Positions 2,397 through 42,552 of a DNA stretch of 64,000 nt are shown one piece after another. A program made the translations under genes and the position numbers. Source of the DNA: Ulva prolifera (Eukaryota > Chlorophyta > Ulvophyceae > Ulvales > Ulvaceae); the NCBI GenBank assembly GCA_023078555.1, contig CM041200.1, positions 7,355,361 to 7,419,360 of the forward strand, written 5' to 3'. The first letter of the stretch is position 1. Every line of letters begins with the position of its first letter. The notes below the pieces were generated by a model. It did no database searches, was not told where the DNA came from, and worked only from the letters and a program-made list of their open reading frames with translations.

Positions 2397-3528
2397 TTCC
2401 TCTTTTTCAAGTGCCCCGGAAAGCATGCACTGGAAGGTGGCTCTACCTGGTTTCTATCTCTGCACTGGGACGCAGCATGCACCCAAGTTGCTGTACATTT
2501 TGTGCGTGCATGTGTGTAGGTGTACACCTTCGTTCAGCTGACTGGCTGCGGGGTCGTCTGGATACAATAATTCTGTATGGCCAGTGCTGTGCTTCTATAG
2601 CTGGGCACGAGATTAGCACTAACAGCTGCCACGTTGTTTCGTAGTTGGTTTTGGTGCATTGTTTTGGCCGTTCCTTTTTGTCCCGTGGCTGCCACCACGT
2701 GTGCCAGAGCTCTGGCTGTAGATGCTGCAGAGACGCACACTGCGTGCCTCCCGCATGCATTGCTCGCACCCGTAAGCTACATGGACTGCCTTATCGGGAT
2801 ATCCCGTCCCGTTCTTTGGCGATGTGTTGTACGCGCTGTTCCGGCATGAGCGCCTCGCTCACGTAGACTTAAGCTTGCTCCCAGGATTGAATGCGTGGCC
2901 ACTTGTACATGTGATCAAGCTCTGTGTTGATTGCTTGACTGATTTTCGGCTAGCCTGACTCAGGTAAGTACATTTTGTGACTGTCATGTGATTACCTGTA
3001 GTAGCATCATCCAGTGAAGGTTTTCCCTTGGGTGGTGCATGAGGCGGTCAGTGATAGTGTTAGGGCAACCTCACAATCAACAAATCTGTGCTGCTTGCGT
3101 TGCATTCTAGATCTGATGCACCTTATTAAGGTGCCTTAAGCTTACCACCTTCACACCAGTGACTTCCAGCACAAATTTAAATCGTGTATCAACTGCATAG
3201 TCAAGGCCCCGGAAAACACAAACGGTCAACTGACCGGTGGACACCACTTCATTTTTTGTACGGCAATTGCCTATAGGACGACACGACAGTCATTGTTATG
3301 CCCACGGATGAAGGAGACAAGAGAGCACCACCAGGGATATTTGGTGATATATCCACGACACACACACGCCACCAAGCCCTCTCGACCGCACTCATGAGTG
3401 ATCACTCCCTCCCTGTTACGCGTACGGATTTTAACCCCCCCACCAACGTTGTAGTGTCCACTCCCATTTCCAATAATGATCAGATCAAAGTCAGAGAAGT
3501 CGGTAGCGCCACAGGCAACAATCTGCAG
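2397..3528. other. Spacer between convergent genes A and D
   Basis: This holds the 3' flanks of two convergent genes and no coding exon. It contains the unoccupied target site (cattgttatgccc, about 3294-3306) that carries a Harbinger-like insertion in copy 2. Confidence 0.5.
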
Positions 3529-6500: not shown

Positions 6501-9500
6501 GCGCGTGCCGCCGGTGCTGAAGGGCTGCGCAAAGAGGGCGAGGTGGCGCGGCAGGCAGTACTCGTAGTCAGGGTTCATGCTGCATCGTGGCTGCACTGCG
6601 GTGCTAGCCGGGTCCGCGGCCCCCTGCGCGTGCATGCATGCGTGTTGGCATGGGTACCTTTGCATGTGAGCCTCACGTGGCCAGTTTCCTTGAGAATACA
6701 GGTCACGGCCAGCACAGATCGTGCGCAGCACACATGCACACTACGGTTGTGGCGGCTACCGGTAGGGTACCCATGGCCAGGAGACTGTCGCCATTTGTGC
6801 ACGTGTCAAAGCCGACAAAAAAACGACTGGCTGTTACGGTACAGAGTCTGGTAAGGTGAGGATTCTGCATGCGTGGATGGTCAGTGCCTCACCTTATCAG
6901 TTCTACCGTGGCCAGTGTCCTGCCGCTGATGGTGGTACACTGGATCGTCGACTAGTATGTCTTCAGGCTTTGTGGCCCCAGCAGGTAATTGGACCTCACT
7001 CAGGACTTTTGACCTGGCCCTGCATCCGATGGGACGGCCGCGTTTCAGCCACAGCCAAACAGCTGCAGTTGCGGCAGACACGAGCAGAACCAAAGCCACA
7101 GCCACTGCGGTGACCACCTCTTGCAGGCTTGGGCTGGACGGCCTCAGGCTTGGAGGGGTGAGGATGGGGCGCCGCCCCGACGCCGGCAGCCACGGCGGCG
7201 GGTCTCCCGGGGCCGGAAACGATAGGATATCCAACATAGCGGCTGCCACGTCTGGCGGCAAGCTCGCGTCTTCCGCAAATATTGGATTTACTGGCTGCCC
7301 ACGGAATGGCGGGCCGATTGCAGGTGGAGGCCATGCTGCAGGTGGCGTCGGCGCCGGCAGAGACTGCATGCCACAGTATGAACTCGCGGCTTGCGTCACT
7401 TATCGTGCGTGCCCATCGGTGGGAACAGATGCTGTTTGTACACGCCATGGTCCGGCATAGGAGCTGTGCATGAAAGAAGAAACAGTGACATTTCGGGCTG
7501 GCAGCCGTATACGTACTGAGACTTTGCAAGCGCACTTGTTGAACGGCGGCAAGCCATGAGCTGTTTGGAAGCAGAAGCCGCTGCTCCAGGTGCGCCCACG
7601 GATCGAAGAACTCAAAGCCGGGCACCGCCCCGCCGCCCGGGGGCAGCGGGCTCATGTCCCGCACACGCTGCCGCTGCTGCAGTGACTCGTCTGGGCAGCC
7701 GGGCATCAGAACACCGGCCGCGGTGCGCTGGTAGAGGCAGTCACTGTGTAGCCCGTCCGCGATCACATGCCCCCCGCGGAACGCCCCGCGGTCCTCGATC
7801 GCGGTGATCGTCTCGATGCGGACATCGATGACTCCGCTGGCACTGCCGTCGTCTGCAATGTAGACAGCATGCTGTAAACTCCAGCTGCCATGGACACCTG
7901 TTTGCTTCTAGAGGAATGTCGTTGCCTGCCGGTGTCCACACATCTGCTACCCGTGCACAATCAGTCGAGATGCGAGTCTGTTACCGTAAATAATTTTGCG
8001 GTGCCAGATCCAATATGTGGGTACCAGAAGCGGAATAATAGATGCGTAAACAGAGTATTATAGACAGAGACGCGTGATGCCACGATGCAAGCACCTGCCT
8101 CGTAGTAGGTGACGAGGTGGCCTGAGTGCGGCTCGAGGACGCTGGAGTAGTCGTTGGCCGTCGTGCCGACGACGATGCCCCCGTTGAGCGTGATGTTGCC
8201 GAGAGTTGCGTTGGAGAAGGAGACGGTGCCGCCGAAGGACACGTCCACGAGCTCGTGCACGCGCTGTGTGTTGCGGAAGATGGTGTTGTGGACGCCAGCG
8301 ACACTCTCATGCTTCACCGCAAGCGGCGGGTAGTCGGCCGCCCAGTCCGTGAAGACGCAGCCTGCATGCCAGCGTGTCTACCCGTTTGCATGTGTCAAGG
8401 ATTTTGCTCTGCCTGCGTGCAGCGTGGGCTTGACAGGGTGCGAATGCGCTGTGTCATCCCGCCGCAAGCAGCGGTTCCCCTCTTCATCACTCATGTCGTC
8501 GCACATGAGTCATGTGTGTTACAAGGACAAAGGCAGCAAGGCGGGCAGCACCGCGAAAGAAGCAAACAGACGATGAGTCATGTGTGTCCACAGCAGTACA
8601 TCACGTGTGAGGTGTGACTTGGAGTGAGATTCTCCTTCACGTGAAACGCTGCCCTTTGAGGAACTGTGGTGGCAAGGCGGCAGTCAAACATACGGGTCAT
8701 CGACAGATGCACACATCCGCACAGTGCCTGCGGATGCACAGACGGCAGCCGCACCTTCAATGTAAACAGACGTATGGAGGTGGTCAGTCGTCACGCCAAC
8801 CACGCCCGTTCTTGGATCTGCCTGGAAAGTCACGTCCGTGACATAGATGTCACTCGGTTCCAGTAGTGGCCATTTGATCCTATTATCTAGCGCCCCAGCG
8901 GTGATCAGGGCAAACGATGGCCGCACGTTTCGGCGTGCCACCTTGAGGTACACGTTGTCCACCCACACCGCGCCCTTGTTCACCATCAGCCACGTCTCGC
9001 TCACGAGTAGAAGGCACTGGCCTGGAAGGAGTGGCACGAGGTCGGGGGAGGCCGCAGTGTCGACAGAGCGTGCGAGAGACAGCGCGGGCGCATGGTCTTG
9101 ACAGTTTCCCTGCACCCACGAGACTACGAGCTATCATCATGCATGCATGCCGGCGAGACGGCAGATTTGCGGGTGCAGCCACGGGCGCGGTCATGCCATC
9201 AGTGACCACGAGTGCAAACAGACATCTACGACAACATGTCGCAGGATCAAGTTCGAGCACAGGAACGCAGCTCTGGGAAAATTGCAGAAATAAGGCAGGG
9301 GCATGCATGCGGATGTGCACCGATGTCATGGATGTGTGGCCTTGCAGAATGAACGATGTCCAGTACATGTAGATACTAGTGAAAGCACATTTTTGGGAGA
9401 CTCTGTTCTGGTCGGACCAGAACATGCATGTGAAATGTCTCTATATGTTTGGGGCCACATGCATGCGCATTGCTCGCTCGGCAGCCGCCACGTGATATAC

Positions 9501-9864
9501 AGTGCATTCTACTGGCCACATGATGCTGAATAGCAGGCATGCATGGGACGGGGGAGCGCACGCGTATGCTCTCGAGGTCGCCCGACGCATACAGCAGCGC
9601 GAGCGCCCTTGCACCATTGCCCTCTATGAGGGGGTTGTCAGCTCTGGGCAACTCCCGGAGATCGAGGTGGGCTCGGATCTCGATGTGCTGAGCACCCGCT
9701 GCGGCCGCGGTCCGCAGCTCCTCCGCAGTCGACACCGGCGTGACCTCGGCTGGAGATGCAGGAGATGGGCCTGCGCTAGGTGTCGGCTGTGGTGGCGCCG
9801 CCGCCGGTGGCTGCAGGGGTGCGGCCGTGGCACCACCTGGGGCGGCTGTTGCTGGTTGTGACAT
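3529..9864 (-). CDS. Gene D: receptor-like kinase with beta-helix-like ectodomain (intact)
   Basis: Nine exons fit with consistent phase: 9864-9562, 9109-8755, 8361-8095, 7852-7536, 7363-6941, 6623-5870, 5491-4854, 4323-3997, 3747-3529 (1200 aa). Residues 1-40 are Ala/Pro-rich. Residues about 45-410 contain segments such as GVHNTIFRNT and VSFSNATLGN, typical of right-handed beta-helix (pectin-lyase-like) domains, with N-glycosylation sequons. After a Pro-rich stretch, residues 497-520 form one membrane span followed by KRGR. A juxtamembrane linker leads into the kinase: Lys826 (QYAIKFF), HRD Asp1040, DFG Asp1059, APEV and DTWSLGI. The role is inferred to be a membrane receptor kinase. The ligand is unknown. 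No signal peptide is visible at this ATG, so an upstream exon may be missing; a TATA-like box lies at 11129-11135. Confidence 0.85.
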
Positions 9865-11270
9865 GACAGCACTGCTGCGGCCAGGCGCATGCACTGGAAG
9901 CACATGCGAATGGATCTACATCTGCTGATGTTTGGGGTTGTCGGGTGCGGGTGGCCGTGGCCAACAGAATTTGGTCATCTGTTGGCGAGCTAGGCTGCAG
10001 GCGGGGTATACCGGTGGGCCTGAAGCTTGAATGCAGCTTAAGATCTGATCAATCGAGGCTGTACAGCACCTCAGTGAAGGGGCCTCGGTGAAGAAGCAGC
10101 GCTGTTTGATCCAGAGGGTGGCCACAGACCCGTGGCCAGATCCTGTACATGCGGATGGTGTGCTTCAGGTTACATCTGGGGGCAAAAGGAGCTTCAGGGC
10201 AACTCGCAAAGGTTAGAGAGACCGGGGCAGGCTACAGAGGCATTTGTAGCAACTCTATGTGCACTGCAACTCTATGTGCACTGCGACAGTAGTGTGATCA
10301 AGCCACAACGAGCACACACCGCGTGCAGGAGTGTAGCAGTGCTTCACCCTCCGGCACCCAGCGGCTCGTTGTCTAGCGGCGCATACACGGCGAGGTGAGC
10401 TTGCCTGACGGTGCGCCAATTTGCAAGCGGATCGAGAGGATGAGCGCGGCACCAATTGCGCAACATGTAGATTCCCGAGAGAGCCAACGCGCTACGTTGT
10501 GCTTTGATATGTTTTATGATGGCCTTCTCAGACAGGCCACCGAGGTGCAGACACAGCGCGCCAGCCGCGTAGTCACGATCAGCGTGCACATATGTGCTCT
10601 AGAGATCTCAAACAGCAATGCCAACGACACGGATATTCACACGATCCGCCGCTACGGCAACACCACCACAGCCTGGCGATAAGTCCCGATGAAAGTAGTG
10701 ACAGTATGTGCACACGCAGGTGAGGGGGGGGCCCGGGGGGGGACCGGGATCACCAGTTTATCTTCCAGCAGAGTTGTTCACAGAAGAGAGAACAGACAAT
10801 CTCAGGATATATTTCGAAAGAGTTAACGGAGGAAGACAAACACCGGCAAAGAAGGGAGAACAGACAATCTCAGGATCACCAGGCAGTCTTACTCTTTCCG
10901 AAACTACCTTCGCGGCCTGCTCTTCCAGCGCTGAGCACTGCCTTCAAGAGTTTGCAAGCTGTGTTTCACCGTGACGCTCATTACATACTCTAAGATACAG
11001 CCAGCCTTCGGGTAAATAAATTCGTGGAGGTGGTGGGAGACGTCTCCGACTCGTCGGCAAACGCCACACGCCAACGTTAATGGTACACACGCAGAGCGTT
11101 CGTATCCGGAGATTCGACGTGGCAGCCTATATATCGCACCTGCAACATCAGTCACGGCAAAGCATCGATCTCTTTCGTTGAAGCGCGTGGATGGTTCGAC
11201 TCAACGATACTGGTGCGTTTGAAGACAGTTCAACGAAAGTTCAGCGTCGGGACAATTGTGGACAAACTAG
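9865..11270. other. Upstream region of gene D
   Basis: This region is conserved in copy 2 (48128-49529). It contains a TATA-like tatatat at 11129-11135, a duplicated motif agaacagacaatctcaggat near 10786 and 10858, and a short minus-strand frame (10589-10347) open here but shifted by an 8-nt deletion in copy 2. An upstream exon of gene D, perhaps with a signal peptide, could lie here but is not proven. Confidence 0.4.
11129..11135 (-). promoter_or_regulatory. TATA-like box upstream of gene D
   Basis: The motif tatatat sits in an otherwise GC-rich context about 1.27 kb before the gene D ATG and is identical in copy 2. The distance implies a long leader or an unplaced 5' exon. Confidence 0.3.
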
Positions 11271-11278
11271 AAGTATTA

Positions 11279-14200
11279 CAAAAGAGTGAACGGGAGAAAA
11301 CAAATACTGAAACCGAATCTCATCCGAATCAACTGCAACATACACTCACACACACACGAACACTACAACCGCACTCACAACTCAGTCCGGCAGGATCGCG
11401 TCCTCCAGGCCCGCATCATATCGCAACCCTTGCTCCCGAGAGATGACAAGCCCAGACTTCCGATACATATCCGCATTGCCGCGCTGCAATGACACCGACA
11501 ACACCCGCAGCGCCCACTGGACAAACGCGCCTTTGGAGATGCGCCCACTGGCAGCGGCCACATCCCCCAACTGACCGACGAACCTCACGGCAGCCTTGCC
11601 CATGAAGCCACACGATTCGACCGCAAACGGAACAAACCGGAACGCGGCATGGTCAGGCACGTCCCGCCGGAAGCGGTCCCGCTTCCTGTCCTCCGCCCGC
11701 TCCGCCGTCGCACCCGTCTCCCGCGCCGCAGCGGCCACGTATGAGGCCGCCGGCGCATGCGTGACCACGACGTCCACGGCCGCCATCTCCAGGCGCGGCA
11801 TGACCACGACGACGTCCCCGCGGCGATTCAGCTCAACACCCGCGCCCCTCGCGAGGGCACGGTAGAGCGGCTCCAGGGCAGACTGCAGTCCGGCGTAAGA
11901 GGCGACCAGGCGCAAGGCACGAGCCAGGTTATCATGGCGCATCTGGGTCTCCTTTGCCACCTTCTTGCAGACCATGGCGTGGTCTGGTTCGGCGGCAACA
12001 CCTGCACTGCATTTGCACGGAGGGGGGGGGACGTCCGTCGGGACGCGGAATCGCAGGCGGTGCCACACCGCCAGGACAAACATGTCGTCGCCCATGGTGA
12101 GAACGCCGCCCGGCAGAGCGGAGAGGAAGGCGCCTGCAGGCCCCCCCGAAGCGCTCCTGAGCCACGCCGCTTCCCGCCTGCCGGCCGGCGTGTCGAGGTC
12201 GATGCCCTGTAGCACGAGTGAGGCCGCATGGTCCGCGACCGCGCGCCCCACCTCGCGCTGGGCCGCTAGCAGCTTGCCCGAGACGAACTCGTCCGGCAGG
12301 TCACGGGCATCCGCCTCCCACCCCAGCAGCTCATGCAGCTCGTCGAACAAGCCCTGCCAGCGCTGCAACAGACTGCCCCGGCTGTGGCCGCGGAGGGGGC
12401 GGAGCAGGTCCGGGCAGCCGGCGAGGTTGCGCTCGGCCGTGCCGGCCCCCGACAGGAAAGCCGCGTCAGCGACGCTGTCCACCAGCATCGTCAGTCCGAG
12501 CCCGCCATGCCTGACAGGGGACATCAGCCGGTAAGCAAGCCGCCGCGTCTCAGCGTCAGTGGCCGAGTTGTCAGACGCGGCAGCAGCCTCCGCAACCTCA
12601 GGCGGCAGGCACAGGATTGCGGCGGCACCGCGCCACACAGCGGCCTCCGCCCTGCGCATGTGCGGCTCGAGCACGGCATACGGCACCGTCCGCATCAGGT
12701 GCGTCATGCGCACACTCAGGGACACACGCAGCAGGAGGAACTGCGCCTGCACTGAGAGCGGGATGCGCACGAGGGTCTCGACGAGGCCCTCGACCTCGCG
12801 CGCCCGCGCGTCCAGCACCTCGGCGACGTACTCCGGGGTGCCCAGCGGCGTGCCGACAGCCTTGAAGCCCGCGTGCAGATCCCGAATGCCGAGCTCTGCG
12901 GCCACGGCGGCCGCCGCCTCGGCGTCGGCGCTGTGGACGCCGCATTTTGCCGGGTTCACCTCAAGCCCAATGCTGCGCACGCCGTCAGCTTCCACGCACA
13001 GCCGCCGGAACACGGCAGCTCCAGCCGCGAGGTCGCCCGCAATGCTGATGTCGTCCAGGTACGCCACCACAGGTGCGCCGGCGCCTGACGCGTCGACGCG
13101 CTCCAAGACAGGCTGCAGGGTCAACGCAAACAGGAGGGGGCCCAGGGGGTCACCTTGGCGGACGCCACGTTGGCAGAGGACCGGCTCGACGTCCTCCGGA
13201 GCGCCCGCGATGTGCAGCGGGGTCCCGGCGCCATACGCCCACTGCGTGAAGGGCAGCAGCGCCGGGGCACGCTCCTTCACGGCAGCGAACATGGCCGCGC
13301 GGTCGATGCAGTTGAAGGCGTTCTTCATGTCGACCGAGAACACCGAAGCGCCCTCGGCCAGAGCAGAAGACAGGCCGTGCACGACTGTCTCGGTCCCGCC
13401 CCGTGTGCCAACGCCGACCTGCAGCGGCGCCAGGCTCTCTCCGATGTCGCGGCCGTACTCGCGCAGGGCGCACACTGCCGCGAACCGGTACCAGGTCTCC
13501 CCCACCGCGATCGGCCGCGTGCCACCGTCCGGCTTCGCCAGGCCGATGAGGAGCCCGTCCAGCAGGAACGTCTCCCGTGGCAGCATGCCGGACAGCATGT
13601 GGTTGACGACCGCCAGCAGCGCGTCGGTGGCTGCGTCCGAGGATTGGCATGCTGCGCAGATCATCTCGAACGTCCAGCCGGACGGGCCGGCCGACGACCC
13701 TCGATGGTGTGCGCTCACGGCGGCCACCGCCGCCACCAGCGCCTCCCGTGTCAGGCACAGAGCGGGGACATCCGGGTTCGGCTCCAGAGGGACCGGCGGA
13801 TCTGCTGGCGGGAACAATGCGCGCAGACCGGCTTGGACCTCCGGGGACCGTGCATCTGCGGGCTTGCCATCCTGCAATCCGCGGCCAGCTTTGTGAATGG
13901 AGCGCTTGATGCGAAAGCATCTGTCGATGTGTTGCGCCCGCAGCTGATCTGCAGACATGGGAGCTTTGCGCCTCCCGGGCCAGCGGCCGGGCGGCGTGTC
14001 CTCCCACATCTCCACGGGCAGCCCGAGGGCGTAGTCGCGGCACCGCCCTGCCGCCGCTTTCCCAGAGCGCCGCCCCCTGCTGTACGCTAGCAGGCGCATG
14101 GGCAGGCGCATGAGCTCCTCGAAAGCGGCAACAACCTCCTCTCGCGCGCTGTCGCCGCGCGCATGCGTGCACGCGTCGGCCACCAGCTCCCACACCCTTG

Positions 14201-15005
14201 TGCACGACTCGGCCCACCCCAGCCGGGCGGCTGGGGGGACATGCTGCGGCAGGCGCAGCCGTGGGGCCGCGTTGGCCCGCTGCACTGGCGGGGCAGATGC
14301 AGCCGCACGGAGCCCGGCCTGTCTGCGGGGGCCCGCCCGCTGCGACTGGCTACCTGCTCCCCGTCCCTTGCCTTTCTTCTTACCTCCCCGCCGGGCACGT
14401 TGCTGCTTGGCGTTGCCGCCCGTGCCCCCACTGGCCTCCGCAGGGGGGGGTGCGCCGGCGGCTGCTGCGGCTTGGCGATGTGGCCGGCGGGTAGCAGACT
14501 GCTTGGCTGCTGCGCCTGCGAGGCCAGGAGGCGGGGGAAGAGGCGGGGAAGGGGTGTCGGCGGAGGCGGGCGGGGGTGGATGGTGGCACTGTGCAGTGCC
14601 GTGAGCCCTGTCGTGCTGGTCGTTGCTGGTGGCTGGCGGCTGCTGAGGGGCAGCCGTGGCGAGCTGAGTCTCACCAGGCACCACATTCAGCGCCGATTTT
14701 ACCTGTTTGCTTGTATCTGCAGAGAGATGAGCCTCGGTAGCTGTCCCGCTGGCAGGTGCTGCGCGCCGGCGCTTGGGCTGTGGAGACCCGCGCGGTGACT
14801 CGCGCTGCACGACTGCGAGCTGTCCATTGTTGCAGTTAACAACTTCATTAGTATCTAGGATGCTACGTTGGTCTGTAATCAATAGGCTAGGTCGCACGGG
14901 CGACTGCGAAGCGTGCTGGCGGTTCAGGTCGCTCAGCTTTGCCTTTGACGGCTCCTTCCGCTTCGGCTTGCCCATGGGACCCTAGCATTGCAGATATGGC
15001 CTAAC
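11279..15005 (-). mobile_element. Full-length non-LTR retrotransposon (LINE)
   Basis: The element reads on the minus strand. An 8-bp candidate target duplication AAGTATTA flanks it (11271-11278 and 15006-15013). It holds one uninterrupted ORF (14975-11382), about 30 nt of 5' leader and about 100 nt of 3' tail. The tail sequence (reading cggttgtagtgttcg ... ctcccgttcactctttt) recurs at 41065-41159 and about 61164-61226, which marks it as the mobile 3' end. No LTRs are present. It lies between duplicated block 1 and a kinase fragment. Confidence 0.8.
11382..14975 (-). CDS. LINE ORF: reverse transcriptase with zinc-knuckle and restriction-like endonuclease region
   Basis: An intact 1197-aa ORF. 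Residues 1-250 are low-complexity and basic, including a Lys/Gly-rich patch near 197-206, and suit RNA or DNA binding. The reverse transcriptase core spans about 410-790: FSVDMKNAFN with Asp549, GVRQGDPLGPLLF at 604-616, and the YLDD box with Asp641/Asp642. After a long connecting region, a CxC...H...C cluster (Cys987, Cys989, His999, Cys1003) is followed by RHD (1013-1015) and an R-x-D...D pattern (Asp1054, Asp1068). This resembles the C-terminal endonuclease of R2-type LINEs, which nicks target DNA to prime reverse transcription. No APE-type endonuclease or RNase H is seen. The absence of stops or frameshifts suggests recent activity. Gene-level family assignment beyond this class is not possible by eye. 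Confidence 0.88.
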   Translation of the reverse strand: MGKPKRKEPSKAKLSDLNRQHASQSPVRPSLLITDQRSILDTNEVVNCNNGQLAVVQRESPRGSPQPKRRRAAPASGTATEAHLSADTSKQVKSALNVVPGETQLATAAPQQPPATSNDQHDRAHGTAQCHHPPPPASADTPSPPLPPPPGLAGAAAKQSATRRPHRQAAAAAGAPPPAEASGGTGGNAKQQRARRGGKKKGKGRGAGSQSQRAGPRRQAGLRAAASAPPVQRANAAPRLRLPQHVPPAARLGWAESCTRVWELVADACTHARGDSAREEVVAAFEELMRLPMRLLAYSRGRRSGKAAAGRCRDYALGLPVEMWEDTPPGRWPGRRKAPMSADQLRAQHIDRCFRIKRSIHKAGRGLQDGKPADARSPEVQAGLRALFPPADPPVPLEPNPDVPALCLTREALVAAVAAVSAHHRGSSAGPSGWTFEMICAACQSSDAATDALLAVVNHMLSGMLPRETFLLDGLLIGLAKPDGGTRPIAVGETWYRFAAVCALREYGRDIGESLAPLQVGVGTRGGTETVVHGLSSALAEGASVFSVDMKNAFNCIDRAAMFAAVKERAPALLPFTQWAYGAGTPLHIAGAPEDVEPVLCQRGVRQGDPLGPLLFALTLQPVLERVDASGAGAPVVAYLDDISIAGDLAAGAAVFRRLCVEADGVRSIGLEVNPAKCGVHSADAEAAAAVAAELGIRDLHAGFKAVGTPLGTPEYVAEVLDARAREVEGLVETLVRIPLSVQAQFLLLRVSLSVRMTHLMRTVPYAVLEPHMRRAEAAVWRGAAAILCLPPEVAEAAAASDNSATDAETRRLAYRLMSPVRHGGLGLTMLVDSVADAAFLSGAGTAERNLAGCPDLLRPLRGHSRGSLLQRWQGLFDELHELLGWEADARDLPDEFVSGKLLAAQREVGRAVADHAASLVLQGIDLDTPAGRREAAWLRSASGGPAGAFLSALPGGVLTMGDDMFVLAVWHRLRFRVPTDVPPPPCKCSAGVAAEPDHAMVCKKVAKETQMRHDNLARALRLVASYAGLQSALEPLYRALARGAGVELNRRGDVVVVMPRLEMAAVDVVVTHAPAASYVAAAARETGATAERAEDRKRDRFRRDVPDHAAFRFVPFAVESCGFMGKAAVRFVGQLGDVAAASGRISKGAFVQWALRVLSVSLQRGNADMYRKSGLVISREQGLRYDAGLEDAILPD

Positions 15006-15224
15006 AAGTATTATCAAATGCCAAGCGCCGAGCCTCCGGGGGCTCGACTGCCATGCCGTGGACGAGGTCAACCGACACGACCAGCAACAGACCCAGCAAC
15101 AGACCCAACACAGTGTACGTCCCTCGCCGTTGAGCTTCTGACCGGAGCGCCTGCGTTTGACCTAGTCGACTATGGCCGCAGCACGGTGTGCCAGCTGCCT
15201 CCTCTCCATCAAATGCACAACTGC

Positions 15225-15440
15225 CACTACCAGCACTGAGTTGTCCTTATGCATGCCCTATCCGAGCATCACGGTGAGGCAGCCATATACTGTCCTTACA
15301 ATCACCTTAAGGCCAACATAGTCCTTACAGTGGGGACCAGGCCGGCACAAGGATCTTAAGGACTCTCGGTTGTGTCCCTATGGTAAGGACTAAATCGGGC
15401 TTGGCTTTGGTCGTATGGAGCTGGTGTGTAAGGACACGGT
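15225..15440 (+). repeat. CACTA left terminal and subterminal repeats
   Basis: A 25-bp terminal inverted repeat is followed by several GTCCTTA or TAAGGAC copies (near 15243, 15291, 15321, 15384, 15430). They are inferred binding sites for an element-encoded protein. Confidence 0.8.
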
Positions 15441-16661
15441 AATGATCAACCCGGGACAGGCTGCGCATCTGACTGCTAGGCCAACACAAGGATACAAATT
15501 GCCGTAGGATTCCAGCCGTGTTAACCGCATGAAACTACAAGTTGACCGTAAACGTTAATGATTGGTGTTATCGTATTGGTGAGTACAGCATGTGGTGGTG
15601 TTTGCTCAGCGTCCTGTGAAGCATTGACTCGATGATAATATCCATGCCTTCTGTTTTCAAGTTCTCCCGTGTGATAGAATTTGGCTGTGGTCAGACACAA
15701 TGCTATGCCGATTTCCAGCTGCAATGCCAAGAAGCTATGCACACATGTGCGGAGCTGCAATAGGCACTTTTGCGCTTCCACTGCCTTGATTTGCTCACAA
15801 GAGACACTGTGTAATTGCTTTATTCTATGAGGACTGCAAAAAGCTGATTCATTTTGTTGGTAGAATGCTAACAGTCCAACAGGGGCATGACAGCATTTCC
15901 TCGATGTACCTGGTCTACTGGACTTCGTACAGAAAGTAACGTCGGCATGAGCAATAATGAAATACGTATATTACAGTGCGATCTGCGCTTTGTTGTACAG
16001 AGGGATGATGCATTTATTACGTCCTGGCAAACCGAGTCCGCAGGGACCACTCGAACTCAGCTTCGCGAAACGGAATTCAGGCTCGGCAATGTACACACTG
16101 CGCGGATCTCAATCCAATGGCTACATCACTGCAGATCGAGTCGTCAAACCCGCGTACCTAGTGGTGTGTTTCCGCGTGAGGTGTCCTTGCCATACCCGAA
16201 CGCCTCCTACAGTACGAGTACTGCTCATCGATCACATAATGATTCAGCTGTGGTCTTATAAAATTCACCAAGCAAGGTCGAGTTCATGGACCTGCCTACT
16301 TTCACTTACAAAAGTAGGTGTGACAATTCGCTGCTGTTTTCTGATCGCTGCGTGAACATGGCCGCAACGTGGCTTCAGTTGCGGCATGCGTGAGCGCAGA
16401 CATTTTTTTTTCCCTGACGAACGTCTTTCAATGAAGCTATCCATAACATGTACGATACAGGTGCCCTTCTTTATTGTAATAGGACACTACAGCGTGCTCG
16501 TTTACACTTGTTCACGAGTCCTTGCACACTGACAGCCTGGGTACGAGACTATAACGGGGCTACCTGCTGTGTCGTAGTTGTACCCCTTATTCATGCCCCA
16601 AGGGAGTCTTTTTTGGCGTGAACCTAAAGGTGACGTGTGTCTCGATGTGTGTACATGTGGG

Positions 16662-16694
16662 GTGCGCGTCTACAGCTATGCTGTAGACGCGCAC
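16662..16694. promoter_or_regulatory. Perfect 15-bp inverted repeat upstream of the transposase
   Basis: Arms gtgcgcgtctacagc (16662-16676) and its exact complement (16680-16694) are separated by tat. It lies 28 bp before a TATA box. It could be an operator or a hairpin. Confidence 0.65.
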
Positions 16695-16721
16695 ACGCCG
16701 GCCTTTGTCTGCGGGAGGTAG

Positions 16722-16731
16722 TATATATATA
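16722..16731 (+). promoter_or_regulatory. TATA box of the CACTA transposase gene
   Basis: The run tatatatata stands in GC-rich surroundings 244 bp before the chosen ATG, directly after the palindrome. It is a likely core promoter. Confidence 0.6.
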
Positions 16732-16974
16732 CAACTGGGTGGACATACTCAGTCAACTTCAACAACGCACACCCTCTTTACACTTGCAGTGAGCGACGAC
16801 GTTGTACATGTGGCAGACAAGCCTCGCGAGTATGGCATCGGGACGACGTTTGAGACCTCCACATCGGAAGCAAGCTAAGATGACAGTTGTTAGGACATGA
16901 GCGTTCGCAGCAAGTAGGTTGAGCCATGACTGACGATTGTGAGGAGGAGTACTCCGGGCACTGCATAGTCTTCC

Positions 16975-19900
16975 ATGGAGCGAGAGGCTGCAGTGACAGC
17001 TGCGCTGGGGTTGCCTGCTTTCGATGCAAGGGAACTTCAGGGTACTTGGAAACTTGTGTGCAAGTTTTGTGAAGAGACAAGAGCGAATTGCGCCCCTGGT
17101 ACATCGAACCGGGTCAACAGAGGAATTGTCGCAAGCACCAAGGCAGCGAAGCGTCATCTAGCTTCTTGCCATCGCACCAGTGGCAATCCGGAACGGAATT
17201 GTTCCCACGACGATCAAGCACTTTCAGGACAGCAGCATAGAAGAGGACCAGCCCCTCCAAATTCTGTAGGTTGTGCGGTTGTGGTTGATAGCCAAGCCCA
17301 CGTTGCGATTGGGTCCGAACCCGGGGGCGTGCTACTTCAAGTTGACCAAAATGCATATGCCAGAGAGCCATCAGGCGGTAACGGCTCAAGCGCCCCGACA
17401 ACAGGTTCGTCTGCGCATGCCCAATCTAACAGTGTCGCAGCTTCAGACAGTGCCGGGCCTGCTCCAAAATCTCCAGCCTCGCAATCGATTGACAGTATCG
17501 CAGCTACCGTCGATTCCCAACCAAGCTATGCTTATTCTACTAGCGAGGATGAACGAGTTAGAGATGATGCTGGCAAGGCAGACGAAGGTTCAATTGATGG
17601 ACCCATTGCTAGTGATGGTGAGGGGGCGTTCTGTTCCGGAGTTCCACAGTACGGGCTGGAGTCCGACACTGAATCCCAAGGCGATTACAGCGATGACAGT
17701 GACAGCCGCCTCGGGCCTCTGCCAAGAATGCCGCGCAAGCAGTCAGGCGCGTGGCTCAGGTCAAGACGGCTAGAACCTCTTGCCACCAACCACGAGAGGT
17801 CCGTGCTACAAGCCGCCTACAATCAGGTCGAGATTAAGAAGCATGGAGCCAGCAACACTGTTCTAGAGATGATCGCGGAAGACAATTACCGTCTGCTATC
17901 TGGTTTCAAGGGAGAACATAAACCACATGAGATTCTCTTGCCCCACTCCATGCACATGGTGAAACAAGTGCTAGGCACAGAGGACGCGGCCAAGTATGAA
18001 TTCGGGTGGTGCAGCGAGTGCGCCATGCGCTTTGAAGTTGATCCCGACAAGGCCACCAAGACCAGGGAGCAGTTGCTGCAAGAGACTTGTCCACGATGCG
18101 GCTATCACAAGTATGAGGTATGTCCTCTGATCTTATTAATAAGAACATCTTGTTTACATTGTTGACATGATTATGAGTGTATCCACCAGAGTCACATCTT
18201 TATGTGCCTTGTGTTGATGTGCCTTGTACATTATCCTATTATGGTGTCCCGCGGCGAATTCGAATTTCATCCTATGTGCATATGCAACAGCTTCGCATTT
18301 TTGCTCCCATACATAATTTGTTTTCTATTGGTCCAGGCTGCGTCAGCAAGAACCGTAAAGTTCAACCGAAGAGGATGGGATTTCACAATGGAGGCCGTAA
18401 TTAAGTGGTTTCACGAGGACGAAGCTTTTCGTGAGGCAGTGCTTGCGGCCCATCCTTTGGACTTCACTGATGCCGATGGCGTGGCCGGGTCCCTGTACCT
18501 CAATATGCTCAACGAGGATTGCAAAAATGTTCTCTCGAAGCGTACCGATGCTTTTGGTGCAGGAATTTATGGCATGGGTGTGATCATGTTCGAACCTATG
18601 CCACACTGTGGGTGTCAAACCGCGTGGGGCACAATGATGCAGTACTTCAATGCGTTGGCACCGATTGCTAGTTGCATGCCCTCAATCCATATCTCTACCA
18701 TGTACTCGACATGTGGTCGAACCACGTATCGTCTTAACACCACTGAGTACCGGTAATGCTAGCGTTGCCTCACCTATTCTACGCATGTGCAGGAGCTGAT
18801 GGTGGCAACATCTTCAAGCTAAGAATTGGCAGTACTACCATTGTCGGCGTGAGACGCTACGATCTACATGTCGCAAAAAATGCCAGCTGCCTATCATGGC
18901 AGCCTCTCATCATTCTGGAAGGTCCTACGGAGCCGTCTCAATTGGAAGACATTTTGAAGCCAACTGTGGACTTCTTTGTCAACCACGACCCAGGTACATC
19001 CTCTTATCGAGGATGCCCCAATATCCAATATCTTATACACACAGTTTTCAGTCGGTAGTAGCTGAGTGACCAATGTGTTGAAAAGGGGGTCAATTGACTT
19101 CGTGGATCCTGCCATGCGCAGGTCGGGAGGGCACAGAACCGTTTGAATTCACAATTTTCCCAGGAGGAAGGGAGATGCGCATACAACACTGGCCTGTGCT
19201 TGCTTTCGTGGAAGGAGACCTAATGATGATGTATAAACTCATGTTGACGCTGCCACACAGTGCAGTTGAGGCTTGCCCACGTTGCGCTCTTCAGGGGAAG
19301 TCCATCAAGAATGCCATGAGGTGAGGTTCAGCGGTGACGTGGCCGTGCAAACTTGTATGCCACCTGTGCAGATCCTGGCTATACACTAGTTGCCACACCA
19401 ACCAGTGCACCTCAAGAGTGCATTTTTGGAGGATCCTAGGCACACAGTGATGTGACATGTGCTTGTAGGTTTCCGTACGAGACGAATGTACCTCGAAAAA
19501 TGCCCGCCACTAAAGATGCAAAGCGGATCCCGGACATTCACAAGAGGGACCACGTAGCTCGTCAGCTGGGTGTCCCCGCTGGGTACGCAGGGGAGGATCC
19601 GCCGGTCTCACGCTCACAACTACCACCATGCCATGCAGAGTCTTTGCGGAACGGTGCCCGTCTCACCGATGATGAAGCTGATTGGGACGACACCGAAGAG
19701 TTAAAGTACACTGCGTACGAGATGCATGAACGCGCGCAAAGTGTGCAAGATCAGTGGGACAAGTCCCTGAGGAATTTGTCGCCGCCTCTGCACCAACAAG
19801 ATCCTGAAGCTCGCAAAAAGTCTTGGAAGAAGCTCAAGAGTGATGCAGAAAAGGTTCAAACGGAGACTGGCCTACGTGGGATGCCAGGGTATAGCAGGCT

Positions 19901-21770
19901 CAGTTACTTCAGGTGCGTGCGTGAATCACTGGAAGCCATGAGTGTCGGAAGACACCCATCATGATCAAGGACACGCGTACGTCTTGTAGGTATGAACATT
20001 TTTTCCACTTTGCGTTGGCGCATCTACTGTTGTACGGCATCGTCCGGGATTTCTGGAATGTGTGGCTTCGCCCAGAAGACCCAAAACCAAAGGCTGATGG
20101 ATCCAAACCAAAACGAAGAAAGAAACATCGACTCCACGGAAACAAGTACGTTCTTCCTAAGTACATCCGGGAGGTCATCAAGAGACGGGCAGCCAAGATG
20201 CACTGGACAGCACAAATGAAGAAGCGCAGCGCTGATGTACTCGGGTATGATGACAACACCGTTTCTCTAGGGCGTGCATAGTGACGAATCACCACCGGTG
20301 TCACCCTAGTGCGTCTATTTGACTTGGATTTTGCGCTGCAGGAGTAGGTCTACTTGGACAATGGAGGAGTACATGACCTTCGTAGAAACGTGCTCGCCAT
20401 TCCTCCTATTCGAGCTTCCCTGGAAGGATGAAGATTCTGCGGTGAAAGAAATGTTTGAACTTCAGTGGGGCAGCCTTCGCCGGGCGGTAATGTTTTGCCT
20501 ACGCCAGCAGCATACAGAGCACCATACTCTCAAGCGTCTGGCCCAAGCCCGAGAGGACTTTGAGACATACGCCTGTGCTGCCCAGCAGGTGTGGTGTTGC
20601 CGTTGTCCGTGAAGAGAGAGAGATTTGTTCCTCATGTATACATATACATGAGATGTACTGGCCGATGCACTGCAGGCTTTTCATGGCTTGGTGTTGACGA
20701 CCGCCAAACTACATCATTCAGTGGTGCATGTCATCGACCAGCTCTGTTGTCAAGGTCCCGGATCTCTGTACACCGAGTATTGGATTGAACGCATGATCTG
20801 GTATCTGAAGTTGCACTTGAAAGATCGAGTCAAGGATAATGGTGAAGTTACGTTTGTGAACGACCATTTGCTCATGGTCTCTGCTCAGTCATGCCGGTGC
20901 ATGTACCCAGAACACTGTTTGACAATTGAGGAGAGGCGTGAGAAGCCATCTGCCGTGGCCTTCCCCGAGTATGATGTCTCTTCTGAAGACGTCTTGTTAT
21001 TAGGCCCCTCGAACAAAAGAGGCCTGACCGAAGAGCAGGAGCTATGTGTCATTCAACAGCTTCCAGGGTTACTTAGAGTGGAAGGCGAATCTCGCAAATG
21101 GTACAGAGACCGCGGGTGGCCTGCGATTCATGACTTCGTTATGCATCGGATGCACAAGAAGAACAGATTCATGCTTGATAAGTATATGCAGGCCTCGCTT
21201 CCGTCGATGGATGTGGTCACTTGCAATGATGATTGCAGGCATGTAGTCACGGACAACAGATGGGTGTTTGTGGGGTACACGTATGATGATAATACCGAAT
21301 GCCCTTGTGTAGCTCAGGTGCAAGCGTTTGTCCGTGTGCGGACCAGTAACGGGGCTTCCAAAGCGTTTGATCCCCGAGGGTGTGTCCACAGAGAAGAGGT
21401 GGACCAATACATTGTCCCGTCCGACATTCCGGGGAAGTCTATCCCCGCCCAGCCTCTTCGTATGGCAATTTGCAAGCTATGGGCAGCTGATATCCTAGAT
21501 TGCGATGCCATTGGCAGCCCCGATCGTCAGCCTGGTAGCGTCCCAGACTTACTGAAGGTGCATCACATGGGTGACACCGAAGCCAACCAACTACCGCCAT
21601 CTGCGCGGCGCCGGAGTGGTACAAGATGCTACTTTGGATTGAATCTAGTTAATTTATCTGAAGTGTGGAGCCAGCTGGTTCCGTCTCAAACTTTTCAAAA
21701 TGATCTAGCCAGAGGTGGAACTCGAGAAAGTCAAGTCTTCATGACTTGTTCAAAGTTATCAGGAAAGTAA
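16975..21770 (+). CDS. CACTA transposase (tnp2/TNPD-like), eight exons
   Basis: Exons 16975-18117, 18337-18577, 18793-18993, 19122-19320, 19469-19912, 19990-20244, 20342-20588 and 20676-21770 all join in phase and give 1274 aa. An N-terminal BED-like zinc finger (Cys29, Cys32, His61, His66) is followed by an acidic low-complexity region. A CxxC...CxxC zinc ribbon sits at Cys346/349/372/375. Exons 3-4 carry WQPLIILEGPTEPSQLEDIL and a HWPVLAFVEGDLMM...CPRCAL segment typical of the Transposase_21 (tnp2) family. Exons 6-8 carry YEHFFHFALAHLLLYGIVRDFW and LHHSVVHVIDQL...GPGSLYTEYWIERM, which resemble the downstream domain of these transposases. The protein should bind and cut element ends in the nucleus. 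The start is the first ATG of the long exon. Catalytic acidic residues were not assigned with certainty. Confidence 0.9.
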
Positions 21771-21883
21771 TAACCACAGTTTGTAATTTAGAGTTTCTAT
21801 TCGTACTGATCTCGGCTGTATGGGCCATTGCTTACGTCGCCACATGGTGTACTATGCTTTTGCACATGCGCATTCAAACATCG

Positions 21884-22636
21884 GCAGTGGATGGATGGAT
21901 CCTCGATCTGTCTTTTGCAGAAACGAGTCACGTTGAAATGTGCATGGGAATTGGGGTTGCCTGTGTGCGGTGCACCATGGTGGCCCCGCAGTTTGAAGCG
22001 GCCTACCGGTCATCCAAGCTGAGAGCCACAGGCCAGCTACACCTGTGACATGAACTTTCAGGTGCACCCCAGCTGACCTCAATTCCCACACTATTCGTGA
22101 GTTGGTATCAAGCTGTGATGGGCCTAAGGACCAGCTGGCACCCATGCACGCCACTGCATACTGTGATAGTCTCGACTTGGGCTGGAATTGCCACAAAATG
22201 CACGTAGCTGTCGGAGTTTATATCTGAGCAGTGGATGGATGGATCCTCGATCTGTCTTTTGCAGAAATGAGTCACGTTGAAATGTGCATGGGAATTGGGG
22301 TTGCCTGTGTGCGGTGCACCATGGTGGCCCCGCAGTTTGAAGCGGCCTACCGGTCATCCAAGCTGAGAGCCACAGGCCAGCTACACCTGTGACATGAACT
22401 TTCAGGTGCACCCCAGCTGACCTCAATTCCCACACTATTCGTGAGTTGGTATCAAGCTGTGATGGGCCTAAGGACCAGCTGGCACCCATGCACGCCACTG
22501 CATACTGTGATAGTCTCGACTTGGGCTGGAATTGCCACAAAATGCACGTAGCTGTCGGAGTTTATATCTGAGCAGTGGATGGATGGATCCTCGATCTGTC
22601 TTTTGCAGAAACGAGTCACGTTGAAATGTGCATGGG
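21884..22636 (+). repeat. 344-bp tandem duplication inside the CACTA element
   Basis: Units 21884-22227 and 22228-22571 are nearly identical (one difference noted: aaacgagtc against aaatgagtc). A partial third unit runs 22572-22636 and then diverges. It lies between the two CACTA genes. The units begin gcagtggatggatgg. Confidence 0.92.
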
Positions 22637-22857
22637 TCCCGCCTGATACGTTGGGCCTGCCTTTATGCAAGGATCGGGGGGATGTTACATGCATATGGAC
22701 AGCTTCGCATGCATGCTGCCACATGAATGCACCTCAACAACGAGCTCCAGGTCTACTCAATTCAAATGCACAGACCTCAATATAGCCAAACTCATACACG
22801 CTCGCCTCTCTGTGTCCGAGTATTGTCATACTGTAACCTTACCTATCACAACATACC

Positions 22858-25800
22858 ATGAGCGGCCTACCTAAAGAAATTAGCCAAAGCACAGATGCCA
22901 TCGAGGAAGGGGGTCTGATAACCGTACTATGGGGTGACCGAGGTGAAATGAGCTTTCAGATAGGCCACGATTACTCGCATGAGGAGCAAACGCTGATGTT
23001 TGAAGCTGCATGCTCTCTGGGGCACGCCTCGCCCGACGACGACGACGACACGGAGCTCTTGGGTAAGAAAGCAGCGTACGTCCGGGTCGGCAAGGAGTAT
23101 CGACTAAAGAAACTCTGGCGGATATTCGAGGACATCAAAGCGCTTCTGAAAGGGGAGGCAAGGGACATCTTGCGTGACGGGAAGATCCTTGTCGTGAGAG
23201 AGAAGGAAGGGGCACAACCCATCGCGACGAGGAAGACTCGCAAGCCGGGGACAGCCATGCAGAAAGTACGCCCTATATGCAGATGATGTGAGATACTGCG
23301 GCAGCGAGATCGACGGTGGCCGTTGTAGTGTCGATTCGATACTGTTATGCTCGATGTTACCTTGAACCAGCCAGTCCGCAAGCATGCCGGCAGATGGTCA
23401 TCGACAGGGAGACGCCCGTGAGATCCTTATGATCTGTGACCTCTGCAGGAACTGATGAGGTACTTTATGTGGGGAGCTCCCATGGCGTCTGACATCGAGG
23501 CCATCGCGAAGTCCGTCAACAAGGCCGCCCTCTCCGCCGAAGGCAAAGCTGCCTTGGACACGGTTCTCGATATGTTCTCAGAAGAGCAATATTGCGTGGC
23601 AACTCGCGAACTCGGTGGCAACATTCTCACCCGACTGGTACGCCCGACCTGCGCTGATGCTGAACGATGCATCATGATAACCTTCGCGTCGTGTACGTCA
23701 AGAGAACGAACACACGGCGTCAATGCAAAAAACGATATTTACTCTGCTTATACAAGATAGTTTCGTGTCGAACCCATGGAGCAGTGTTGGGGCCGAATGT
23801 TTGTGTGCGCTTGAAGGCCTGAGGAGTATTCGTAGCACGATTATGCATGGTAGTAGAGGCTCACCTGAGCGAAACATGATTGATGACTGCAGCGACACGT
23901 GCCTACATCCGACAAACCTGAGCTCAGAGGCGTGCGGCGGGCTGCGAGGGCCGTAGAGGCATTCTACGCCAAGCCCTATGAGGCGGGCGGCCTCCCCGCG
24001 GATGTCTTCAAAATGACGGTGAAGCAAGTGAATAACACAAACTCACTCGTGCGCACGCTCGCACGCAATAACAAGATTTCTACGATCCAAGATGCAAAGA
24101 CAAACTGTGACTCCGCCAGAGGCATCATCAAGGCGCGAATTGTAGAATTATCCCAGGTACGGATTGGCATAGTTTGATTATCCGGAGGTAATTTTAACCG
24201 ACCGATCTCTGTATGGGGTGCATGAATCAACTGCGCGTGTGTAGAAGGTCATGACAACGTCTGATGGGATGCGTGCGCCTAGCATCATGGACTCTCCCGT
24301 GGAGGAGCGCGAGGCTACACTCGCGTCACTCCGCAAGGAGGGATACTTGACCATGAAAGAGTGGCTGCGACAGGGGCTGGTGCCGGTGCTACCTTTTCAG
24401 CTTCCCCCGGATGAATCCATGGCAGCCCAGCGATTACCCGTACGACACCCCCTTGCTACGATGCGTCACGCCAGCCGCAGCGATACGATCGCATGGTTTC
24501 GTGATAGTGGCGATCGCTACCGTCATGATCATCTTAGTCTGCCAACCGATGTCGGATCCGCTTGTCACACTGAATGATTAATCCCTTGCATAGCAACGCT
24601 GATCGCGACCAGCGGATGGGAAGCCCAGTTAGCTCGTTGCAGTGACGGAGCCATGAACATTTAGACAAGAAATGGCATCACGAAAGACTAATTTGCTCCT
24701 TGCAGTCAAGCAACTGCAGCAGTCAAGGCACCACAGCCGCTCAGCGCAAAGCAGGGAAGCGGAAGTCCAGACAGATGGGCAGCCTACCCAGTCTTAGTGA
24801 GGACGAGGCTGATGACCATCAAGCAGTGAGCCAAGATGACGACGGCATTGGGACAGATCGTGACGGCGAGGTACGATGCCATGCTGGGCCTACGTGCACT
24901 GATTCACATTCGATGGCTCGCACCCTCGCAGCGCACACACAGTCACTTGCCTGCATTTGACGCCCGAGTGTATGTCCAACAGCCGGGGTTTTAAGCCCCT
25001 CACGCAGGCTTGGCGAGGCAGGAAGCTGCTGCTCAAACATAATCATGTGCTTGGATTGCCACAGACACTTGATGTGTAGGATGATGATGTTCTGGTCGGA
25101 TTGAGGATGAAGGATGTCGTAGCGCTTAAGAGACATCACGACCATAACACAACTCGTAGAGCTGAAGGCTCAGGATCACAGCAAGATGACGAAACGGCCG
25201 GGGACGAGAATGTACCTATCAACATGCAGAATCTGGACCCCCCAGGTGAGCGTGGTGTCAGTGACCAGCATTCGCATCCTGATCAAGCGCTAGACGCCCG
25301 GCAGCAAGCATTGGCCAGGTTAGGGGTTGATGTGGTGCCTTCAAAGCCTGCTCCTCTAACAGGCGAGGATGATCTGCCAGACGTTCACAAACCCGTCCGG
25401 CAAAGCCGTCGCAACAAGTCCCAACAGCCCCGCACAACAAAGCCACACAAGAAGGCCAAGACAACAGCAAATCAGGATGTGGGGTCAGCTGCCGGCGAAT
25501 CCTCTCAGCCGAAGTCGGGAACTGTTGCAGATATCCTAGAAGGTTCTCTCCACAAAGACGCAATCAAGATGGCTGGTGCGTATCCCTAGCACGTGTACTT
25601 GATAACTCTTGGCTGACCCTCAGAATAGTTGGTGTGCATTACCATTTATTGTGGGCGATATCGCCCTCTCCAAATTGAATAGAAGGGAGGCTGTGTTCCC
25701 CGCTCCATCTGCTGGCAGTTGACATGATGTGATTTGCCAATGTAGGTGTGACTCTTGATGATCGGGTTGTCTCGGGCATAGACGATGCAGCTTTTGTCAA

Positions 25801-26245
25801 GGAAATGACCATCAAGGCTGGAACAATGAGCGGCAAAAAGCATCAACCTTTGCGAGTAGGAAAGGCTAAAGAGTCACTGACCGAGATGAAGGTAACCCAC
25901 CCCCGTGCGTTAGGCCCAACATGGCTATTTCAGTCCAATAGCAACGGGCTATTGAGTGCATACGTTGCATACAGCTTGCCTGACAGCATTGCCAGATGAC
26001 CTAGGTCTCTGCTTGTGTCTACCTGTAGGCGTATCACTAGTACCGCTCCATACGTATGCCATGATTCCACTTGACAACGCGGTAGACGTGTGCAGAATCT
26101 ACTCATTGAGTACATTGATGATCAAGCACTCCTGGCAAGACTCAAGGCCGCAGATCCGCGTGATGATGATGCGGTGGCACGGAAGGAAGGCGCTCTGGAG
26201 CGGCTGCTCTCCGCCATTGCCAACTTCTGTGACATTCCGGTGTGA
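22858..26245 (+). CDS. Second CACTA gene, eight exons, unknown family
   Basis: Exons 22858-23265, 23449-23637, 23893-24156, 24245-24439, 24706-24870, 25080-25575, 25746-25891 and 26096-26245 join in phase with gt...ag borders, giving 670 aa. I do not recognise the family. The protein is hydrophilic, with an acidic patch near residue 60 (PDDDDD), a helical segment rich in Ala/Lys/Glu (about 140-280), an acid-rich middle, and a basic cluster around residues 505-530 (RQSRRNK ... KPHKKAKTT) that could be a nuclear-localisation signal. By position it is the counterpart of TNPA in maize En/Spm, which binds subterminal repeats. That role is inference only, since no sequence similarity to TNPA is visible. 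Confidence 0.75.
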
Positions 26246-26639
26246 GAGCTAGCTTTCACGTTGACTGGCGTGATTGTCAAGTTTGTAGATCTACATAATG
26301 TTGTTAATCGAAGGCTCATTCGGTTTGTCTTCCTCTCATCTAGGGGGGTTTGGTTTTATAGTTAGCCTCCGATTAGTTGCACTGTAATGGTGTGTAGACC
26401 ACGGCAGCTAGCTCAACTGTGAGTAGTGCATGTAGACCAATGGACCATGGGTAACGATGAATGATTGCAGTTCCATTTGTAGTACCACTATATCCACACA
26501 ATCAGGGCACTAGATCGGCCTAATGACTGCTCTCAATATGGGCTCAACCGTGGCACAGCCGTCGGGCCGGGAATATGTTGTATCCACCTTGTCCCAAAGT
26601 GGGCCTTACGGTGTCTCCTTCTCAGCAGTATACTGTCCC

Positions 26640-26888
26640 TATGGTGTCCCGCCGTTCGTCCTAACGGTGTCCTATCGTTCGGGAACGTATTAGGTTAGGA
26701 TGTCCTTACTGTAAGGAAGAATCCTTCGTGTCTTATAGTGTCCTTATGATGTCATTAAGTAAGGACAGGCGGCTGCCCCCAATCCTCATTCGGGCCTTAT
26801 TCTCGCCTTATACTGTCCCTACGCCCTATATAAGGACAGTATAATGACGCAATAAGGCCGGGGTAAGGACAACTCAGTGCTGGTAGTG
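26640..26888 (-). repeat. CACTA right subterminal and terminal repeats
   Basis: Multiple GTCCTTA, GTCCCTA and TAAGGAC motifs crowd the last 250 bp and end in the 25-bp terminal inverted repeat (26864-26888). Confidence 0.8.
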
Positions 26889-27536
26889 TGCCATTACATG
26901 CAACTTGAATCGGTCGCGGCTGCAGGTGTCCATGTTCAGAGTCCGGCCTGCAATTGCCGATGACGGGCTACGCCGTGCATTCGTGCGTGCAAGAACAATG
27001 CATAGAACTCAGGCCATGCATGCCATTTTGTGCTGACTGTGTTGCCATGTGATCGTCTTGGCATAGCTACAGAATCTGTGCAGCCACGCTCAAGCCGTTG
27101 TCATGGCACCGCTATCTGGCATGCATGCAGAGGCGTGGTCCAGGGGAGACCTTTTTTCCCGGGCCGTTGCCATTTTCGCCCTCGATTTGATGCTACAACC
27201 GCCGGATGTAGGTGATCATGATGCAGCATGAAACTCTTCCGGGTTTGGAGCTTCAGGTCGTCAGGATTGTGCGACTCGGCTTGGCCGGGAAAGGTGAAAT
27301 TAACACTGAGGCTGTCGCTGCAGGTGGTGGCGATGCTAGAGAAGGCCACGCCGTTGCCGTGGGAGGGGGAGCTCAGCCGCGGCGTGCAGCGCAAGCTTGG
27401 GTTGCTCAGCCGGCCGGTGCTGCAGCTGCTGCAGCGGGAGCCTGAACGCCGAATCACACTCGAGGCCTTCCACGCCGCATGTGCCCATGTGTTTGCCAAC
27501 AGCACAAGCGCTTCGCAGCCGGGTGGCACAGGCTGA

Positions 27537-41573: not shown

Positions 41574-41816
41574 TTATGCCCACGGATGAAGGAGACAAGA
41601 GAGCACCATGGCCACCAGGGATATTTGGTGATATATCCACGACACACACACACACGCCACCAAGCCCTCTCGACCGCACTCATGAGTGATCACTCCCTCC
41701 CTGTTACGCGTACGGATTTTAAGCCCCCCACCAACGTTGTAGTGTCCACTCCCATTTCCAATACTGATCAGATCAAAGTCAGAGAAGCCGGTAGCGCCAC
41801 AGGCAACAATCCGCAG

Positions 41817-42521: not shown

Positions 42522-42552
<31 letters not shown>

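Follow-up and report, generated by a model that had tools for sequence, protein, structure and literature searches.

The 64,000-nucleotide window analysed here, C5:7355361-7419360 of the green alga Ulva prolifera, raises the question of whether the 11,664 bp at its positions 15225-26888 are a DNA transposon still complete enough to direct its own movement. A preliminary description of this stretch, made from its letters, had proposed an intact, autonomous CACTA element with two complete genes. After comparing the stretch with the whole assembly (88.9 Mb, 44 contigs), we consider it very probable, as a prediction from sequence, that the stretch represents a young family of cut-and-paste transposons in the CACTA (En/Spm) superfamily, as a full-length and apparently autonomous member. 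The assignment to CACTA is based on the ends, the 3-bp target duplication, the subterminal repeats and the two-gene plan. It is an element of an ordinary kind that is unusually complete and young, and not a new kind of element.

The matching ends and the perfect TGC duplication were confirmed as they had been described. The 5′ terminal inverted repeat (CACTACCAGCACTGAGTTGTCCTTA, 15225-15249, forward strand) is identical at 25 of 25 bases to the reverse complement of the 3′ one (26864-26888, reverse strand); both start with CACTA (CACTACCAGC...), and the inverted arms extend over 37 nt at 86% identity. Allowing up to three mismatches, the 25-bp end was found at 68 places in the genome, whereas the reversed pattern used as a control was found at none, which indicates that these ends are those of a repeat family and did not arise by chance. 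The element is flanked by TGC on both sides (15222-15224 and 26889-26891), with the junctions reading ...ACTGC-element-TGCCATT..., and its G+C content is 51%, compared with 57-60% in the flanks. An unoccupied version of the site was located on this contig some 70 kb upstream, at C5:7300906-7301317, where both flanks (the 5′ one from 15126) adjoin each other. The sequence of this paralogue is ...CACAACTGC-CTCGACATGC..., in which TGC occurs once and the element is absent; around the site it has ACTGC-CTCG-ACATGC, where the window has ACTGC-element-TGC-CATT-ACATGC. A second paralogue (L076, in the region of C5:7287972) is also unoccupied and reads AACTGC-CTCA. The four bases that follow the duplication in the window (26892-26895) are CATT, those of the empty paralogues are CTCG and CTCA, and the surroundings match at about 85-97%; this difference was possibly left by something that happened earlier at the insertion site.

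The family to which these ends belong has several full-length members. End matches lying 11-14 kb apart were paired, so that the set comprises copies retaining both ends; seven full-length copies including that of the window were recovered, and together with the six short elements analysed they account for 26 of the 68 end matches. Outside a variable tandem array, the other six copies show 7, 10, 14, 31, 35 and 44 substitutions in 10,911 sites relative to that of the window; pairwise differences range from 7 to 50, and no two copies are identical. The closest copy, located on this contig at a distance of 421 kb, shows 8 mismatches and no gaps over 11,664 bp, and outside the array 7 of 10,911 sites (0.06%). 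Algal substitution rates are near 1e-9 per site and generation, and at this rate such a divergence would correspond to the order of 3e5 generations; since the rate of this species may differ, we only claim that the separation is recent. The preliminary description had envisaged near-identical full-length copies with different target duplications as opposed to a single ancient copy, and this was borne out by seven young copies, five of which carry exact 3-bp duplications, all different (TGC, TCC, AGT, CAG and CAT). Near-identical copies with different duplications at different sites demonstrate recent transposition and not, in themselves, present activity; the present mobility of the family is plausible on these sequences. 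Equal spacings of 2,019 bp were noticed beside two of the copies, and both regions contain ends of further elements.

Copies could also multiply by segmental or assembly duplication instead of transposition. A segmental duplication at 95-96% identity is present inside the window, and three short elements with related ends (n1, n3 and n4) are identical including their 300-bp flanks, as such a process would predict. However, the seven full-length copies have unrelated 300-bp flanks, with no cross-matches at E ≤ 1e-5 other than a repeat within the site of one copy (C2b), their target duplications differ, and similarity to the empty paralogue ceases at the ends of the element. Because the flanks are unrelated, duplication is refuted as the origin of the full-length copies, and as an account of the family we regard it as extremely improbable.

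The interior of the element has the organization of a complete transposon. TCCTTA motifs are clustered in both orientations near its ends, with six, counting both strands together, in the 5′ subterminal 300 bp (15225-15524) and six in the 3′ subterminal 300 bp (26589-26888), compared with none or one per 300-bp window in the interior. Clustered subterminal motifs are a property of plant CACTA elements. Between these regions, two genes of eight exons each were predicted on the forward strand. Gene 1 (16975-21770; exons 16975-18117, 18337-18577, 18793-18993, 19122-19320, 19469-19912, 19990-20244, 20342-20588 and 20676-21770) would encode a protein of 1,274 aa, a putative DDE transposase similar to TnpD. 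Gene 2 (22858-26245; exons 22858-23265, 23449-23637, 23893-24156, 24245-24439, 24706-24870, 25080-25575, 25746-25891 and 26096-26245) would encode a protein of 670 aa, a putative accessory protein to which a TnpA-like role is tentatively given. The splice donors of gene 2 were weaker than the automatic exon search required, and its boundaries were placed by hand from the open frames and then checked against a sister element of the same genome. For intron 2 of gene 1, a donor at 18607 was rejected, given that the resulting junction contains a stop codon; according to the sister element, exon 2 ends at 18577. The earlier proposal of two eight-exon genes with agreeing phases was sustained by these models: the 5,838 coding bp contain no internal stops, all 14 introns are GT-AG, and the phases agree throughout. 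Between the two genes lies the tandem array (21884-22636), formed by 2.2 copies of a 344-bp unit. It has two full units in the window and two to six in the other copies, one of which has an irregular array, and it changes more rapidly than the remaining sequence, in which the copies differ by about 0.1%.

Further evidence for the gene models was obtained from the sister element, at C2:7108230-7119449, which has the same two genes and TCCTTA motifs at its ends. It differs in having CACTAG ends (with CAT on both flanks) and in the absence of the 344-bp unit, for which no match was found in this element; only a 71-bp repeat lies between its genes. All 16 exons were matched in the sister without stops in the matched stretches, although gene 2 exon 5 gave only a weak match (E = 0.004) and was therefore excluded from the codon counts. 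Protein identity ranges in gene 1 from 40% (exon 1) to 86% (exon 3), with 68% in exon 8, and in gene 2 from 29% to 56%. In 13 of the 14 intron-flanked exon ends, a GT occurs at the end of the match or no more than six bases past it. For gene 1, the proportions of synonymous (pS) and non-synonymous (pN) differences are 0.75 and 0.24 over 1,253 codons, with a ratio of 0.07 that is rough because synonymous sites are saturated; for gene 2 they are 0.68 and 0.35 over 516 codons, with a ratio of 0.27.

Several results weigh against an intact, autonomous CACTA element, some concerning the class of its transposase and others the condition of the copies. The match to Transposase_21 (PF02992) that had been anticipated did not appear, either in a genome-wide, exon-by-exon search or, at E ≤ 1, with the spliced 1,274-aa protein of gene 1; since none of 14 control genomes was positive in the former search, and since failure of this model to recognize a divergent lineage argues only weakly against membership, the result by itself says little. 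No Pfam model reached its cut-off for the protein of either gene. With the whole gene 1 protein, DUF7560 came first at E ≤ 1 (E = 0.0016, in the N-terminal half) and DUF4218 second (E = 0.081). A search of the Protein Data Bank (PDB) with exon 8 of gene 1 returned no solved relative, and the structure predicted for this exon was uninformative (mean predicted local distance difference test score, pLDDT, of 42). Other matches below the cut-off were PilJ for gene 1 exon 5 (0.017) and, as the only one for gene 2, SYMPK_PTA1_N (0.04). Thus, of the proposal of an autonomous CACTA element with two complete genes, the ends, the open genes, the multiple copies and the recent movement stood, while the Transposase_21 signature did not.

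These profile results open the alternative that the element is a member of a superfamily close to CACTA (Plavaka, Mirage/Chapaev or KDZ-like) rather than of CACTA itself, as would agree with the silence of Transposase_21 and with a transposase too divergent for the Pfam cut-offs. Nevertheless, CACTAC ends, a 3-bp duplication, clustered subterminal repeats and a two-gene plan speak for CACTA. Moreover, when exon 8 of gene 1 was searched alone, DUF4218 (PF13960) was the sole Pfam match at E ≤ 1 (0.028, below the cut-off), and no Plavaka or KDZ model appeared at that threshold. DUF4218 is associated with CACTA transposases. It was also the top match in the four distant open reading frames scanned that cover the exon 8 part in this genome (E = 0.0007-0.083, below the cut-off), a set that leaves aside a fifth locus, L062. 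Gene 1 and its relatives in the genome have in common the blocks G(A/G)DG (aspartate 464), VEGD (561), CxxC, KLH (922-923) and E(Y/F)W(I/V)ERM (944 or 948), which are a candidate catalytic core and which, judged by the motifs of CACTA transposases, may correspond to the DDE triad with its C(2)C and LH. Membership of another superfamily is in our judgement improbable, and the assignment to CACTA is maintained.

Regarding the condition of the copies, two of the seven have no matching 3-bp duplication: C5b (L039/L040) is flanked by GTA/TAC and C2b (L043/L044) by CAA/CGC, the latter lying inside a tandem array, between two direct repeats of 21 bp. Two other copies have broken genes. In C3a, gene 1 is interrupted by a stop codon at position 367 of its reading frame, and C4a (L047/L048) carries a 17-bp insertion in gene 1 exon 6 (equivalent to window position 20110) that by eye resembles an inverted copy of the neighbouring bases, as well as a changed splice acceptor in gene 2 (equivalent to 25745). 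C4a has also lost 25 bp (equivalent to 16664), including most of a perfect hairpin with 15-bp arms upstream of gene 1. The window copy, which had been described as having no visible lesion, is intact in its reading frames and splice sites, but it is not free of private changes. Four substitutions are exclusive to it; three are non-coding, and the fourth, at 20575 (forward strand), places Cys at codon 906 of gene 1, where the six other full-length copies and the sister element have Phe. Compared by eye, this codon is not conserved in three distant relatives (L064, L065 and L066), so that the change may be harmless.

In view of these lesions, we considered that the family may have moved recently and now be silent, with copies that are intact because of their youth and are silenced by the host, or with a window copy made non-functional by its private change. 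The two broken copies, the private missense change and the fact that no pair is identical outside the array (minimum 7 of 10,911) agree with such a silence. In contrast, both genes are open in five of the seven copies, that of the window included, and the four other open copies show no change at 68 start, stop and splice positions relative to it; besides, the codon affected by the private change is not conserved in the three relatives. A separate line of evidence, favouring the autonomous element, is the pattern of substitution. Counting a shared change as one event, including the two broken copies and without correction for sequencing error, 97 distinct substitutions were found among the seven copies, 58 in 5,073 non-coding sites and 39 in 5,838 coding sites (p = 0.01). 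Among the coding changes, 21 of 39 are non-synonymous (one being a stop), a smaller share than the 74% that the observed spectrum predicts (p = 0.009). Fewer coding changes and fewer non-synonymous changes than expected suggest that gene 1 and gene 2 appear to have been under constraint while the family spread. We regard a family that is now silent as quite possible, although somewhat short of probable.

The young copies are part of a wider set of relatives in the genome. A search with exon 8 of gene 1, in which 112 of 152 candidates were scored so that the counts are lower bounds, gave at least 113 matching stretches. Seven are at 99-100% identity and three are intact at 68%; an older copy at 88-91% (L061) is in two pieces with one stop each, and another at 58-67% is in two pieces, one of them with two stops. 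At least 99 more are at 31-44%, mostly in long open frames, and near these distant loci no match to gene 2 was found at E ≤ 0.001. Exon 1 of gene 2 has 13 matches in the genome, 12 of them with a match to gene 1 nearby; the exception, at C3:7113821-7114195, is a solitary match at 53% identity without a gene 1 exon 8 match beside it. The six short elements, of 2.9 kb, resemble the full-length copies in their ends only, over 275 bp at one side (97-98%) and about 225-240 bp at the opposite side (80-81%). Exact and different duplications flank three of these elements (n2, n5 and n6), which are 30-38 substitutions apart. The three that are identical with their flanks (n1, n3 and n4; L051, L053 and L054, on C2 and C3) have mismatched junctions, TCA/TCG, and were probably copied within a larger duplicated or mobile unit.

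From this organization, a cut-and-paste cycle can be proposed for the CACTA element. The transposase encoded by gene 1 would cut at the CACTAC ends, and the 670-aa, eight-exon gene 2, whose presence is corroborated by its matches in the sister, would supply a second protein that may bind the TCCTTA motifs clustered at the two ends and then bring these ends together. This role, like the TnpA-like label and the capacity to bind DNA, is suggested by analogy with maize TnpA, which binds subterminal repeated motifs and draws the ends together. Insertion would duplicate 3 bp. Some copies, including that of the window, may still be able to move, and the 2.9-kb elements, which have only the ends, are probably mobilized by these proteins as well. 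A further idea, which we think unlikely to be correct, is that the family is still moving and that the 344-bp array is altered in gap repair after excision, thereby varying the spacing or dose of regulatory sequence before gene 2.

With respect to known systems, TnpA and TnpD of En/Spm are produced by alternative splicing of one transcript. Unlike En/Spm, the element described here has two separate eight-exon gene models, a variable 344-bp array between the genes and a transposase missed by Transposase_21. In other respects it is similar to maize En/Spm and to plant CACTA elements, which have CACTA-type ends, a 3-bp duplication and a multi-exon transposase accompanied by a second protein (PMC4158355). 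The same source places CACTA elements from algae to animals, describes them as having a transposase with a DDD/E triad, an ORF2 and the 3-bp duplication, and gives one to six exons for 64 plant CACTA transposases and up to eleven reported in maize (PMC4158355). In searches of the open-licence literature for an intact autonomous CACTA element of an alga, none of the titles and beginnings of abstracts listed describes the present family, which is weak evidence. Jordan of Volvox carteri is short, about 1.6 kb, and is too small for a two-gene copy of autonomous type like the present one. As far as its description goes, it is likewise a CACTA-like DNA transposon of a green alga: the source presents it as abundant and resembling En/Spm and CACTA elements, and cites a 1993 title that calls it active (PMC5093975). 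A CACTA-like element of an alga is therefore already in print.

In the empty paralogue, the reading frame that crosses the insertion site has a protein kinase domain (Pkinase, E = 6e-19) immediately upstream of that site. The copy of this kinase-like gene in the window is also broken by a reverse-transcriptase element from about 11.27 to 15.13 kb (RVT_1, E = 7.5e-11), with limits taken from the breaks in homology. Within it, an open reverse-transcriptase frame of 1,199 aa (RVT_1) lies at 11382-14981 on the reverse strand, belonging to a retroelement about 100 bp from the CACTA insertion, and the DNA beside this frame (about 15025-15105) recurs at 29 other places in the genome. The segmental duplication in the window joins 525-3302 with 37885-40649 and 3296-11268 with 41574-49529, and its cluster also holds relatives of the kinase-like gene. 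As for the algal host that had been presumed, indirect support was found in 38 Chloroa_b-bind matches in the genome; one of them, compared with solved structures, gave mostly chlorophyll a-b binding protein chains among the best 60 of 103, with LHCI-2 at the top. The large subunit of RuBisCO was not found in the assembly.

A single genome thus contains a small set of full-length copies, five of them with both genes open, together with a sister family under constraint and a clean unoccupied site. This combination offers a practical starting point both for an algal gene-tagging transposon and for finding the role of the second CACTA gene. If the membership of the family in CACTA is confirmed, some CACTA transposases escape Transposase_21, and surveys that use this model may undercount them. 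If the proposal for the array were true, the 344-bp repeats would give the element a self-varying control of its own activity.

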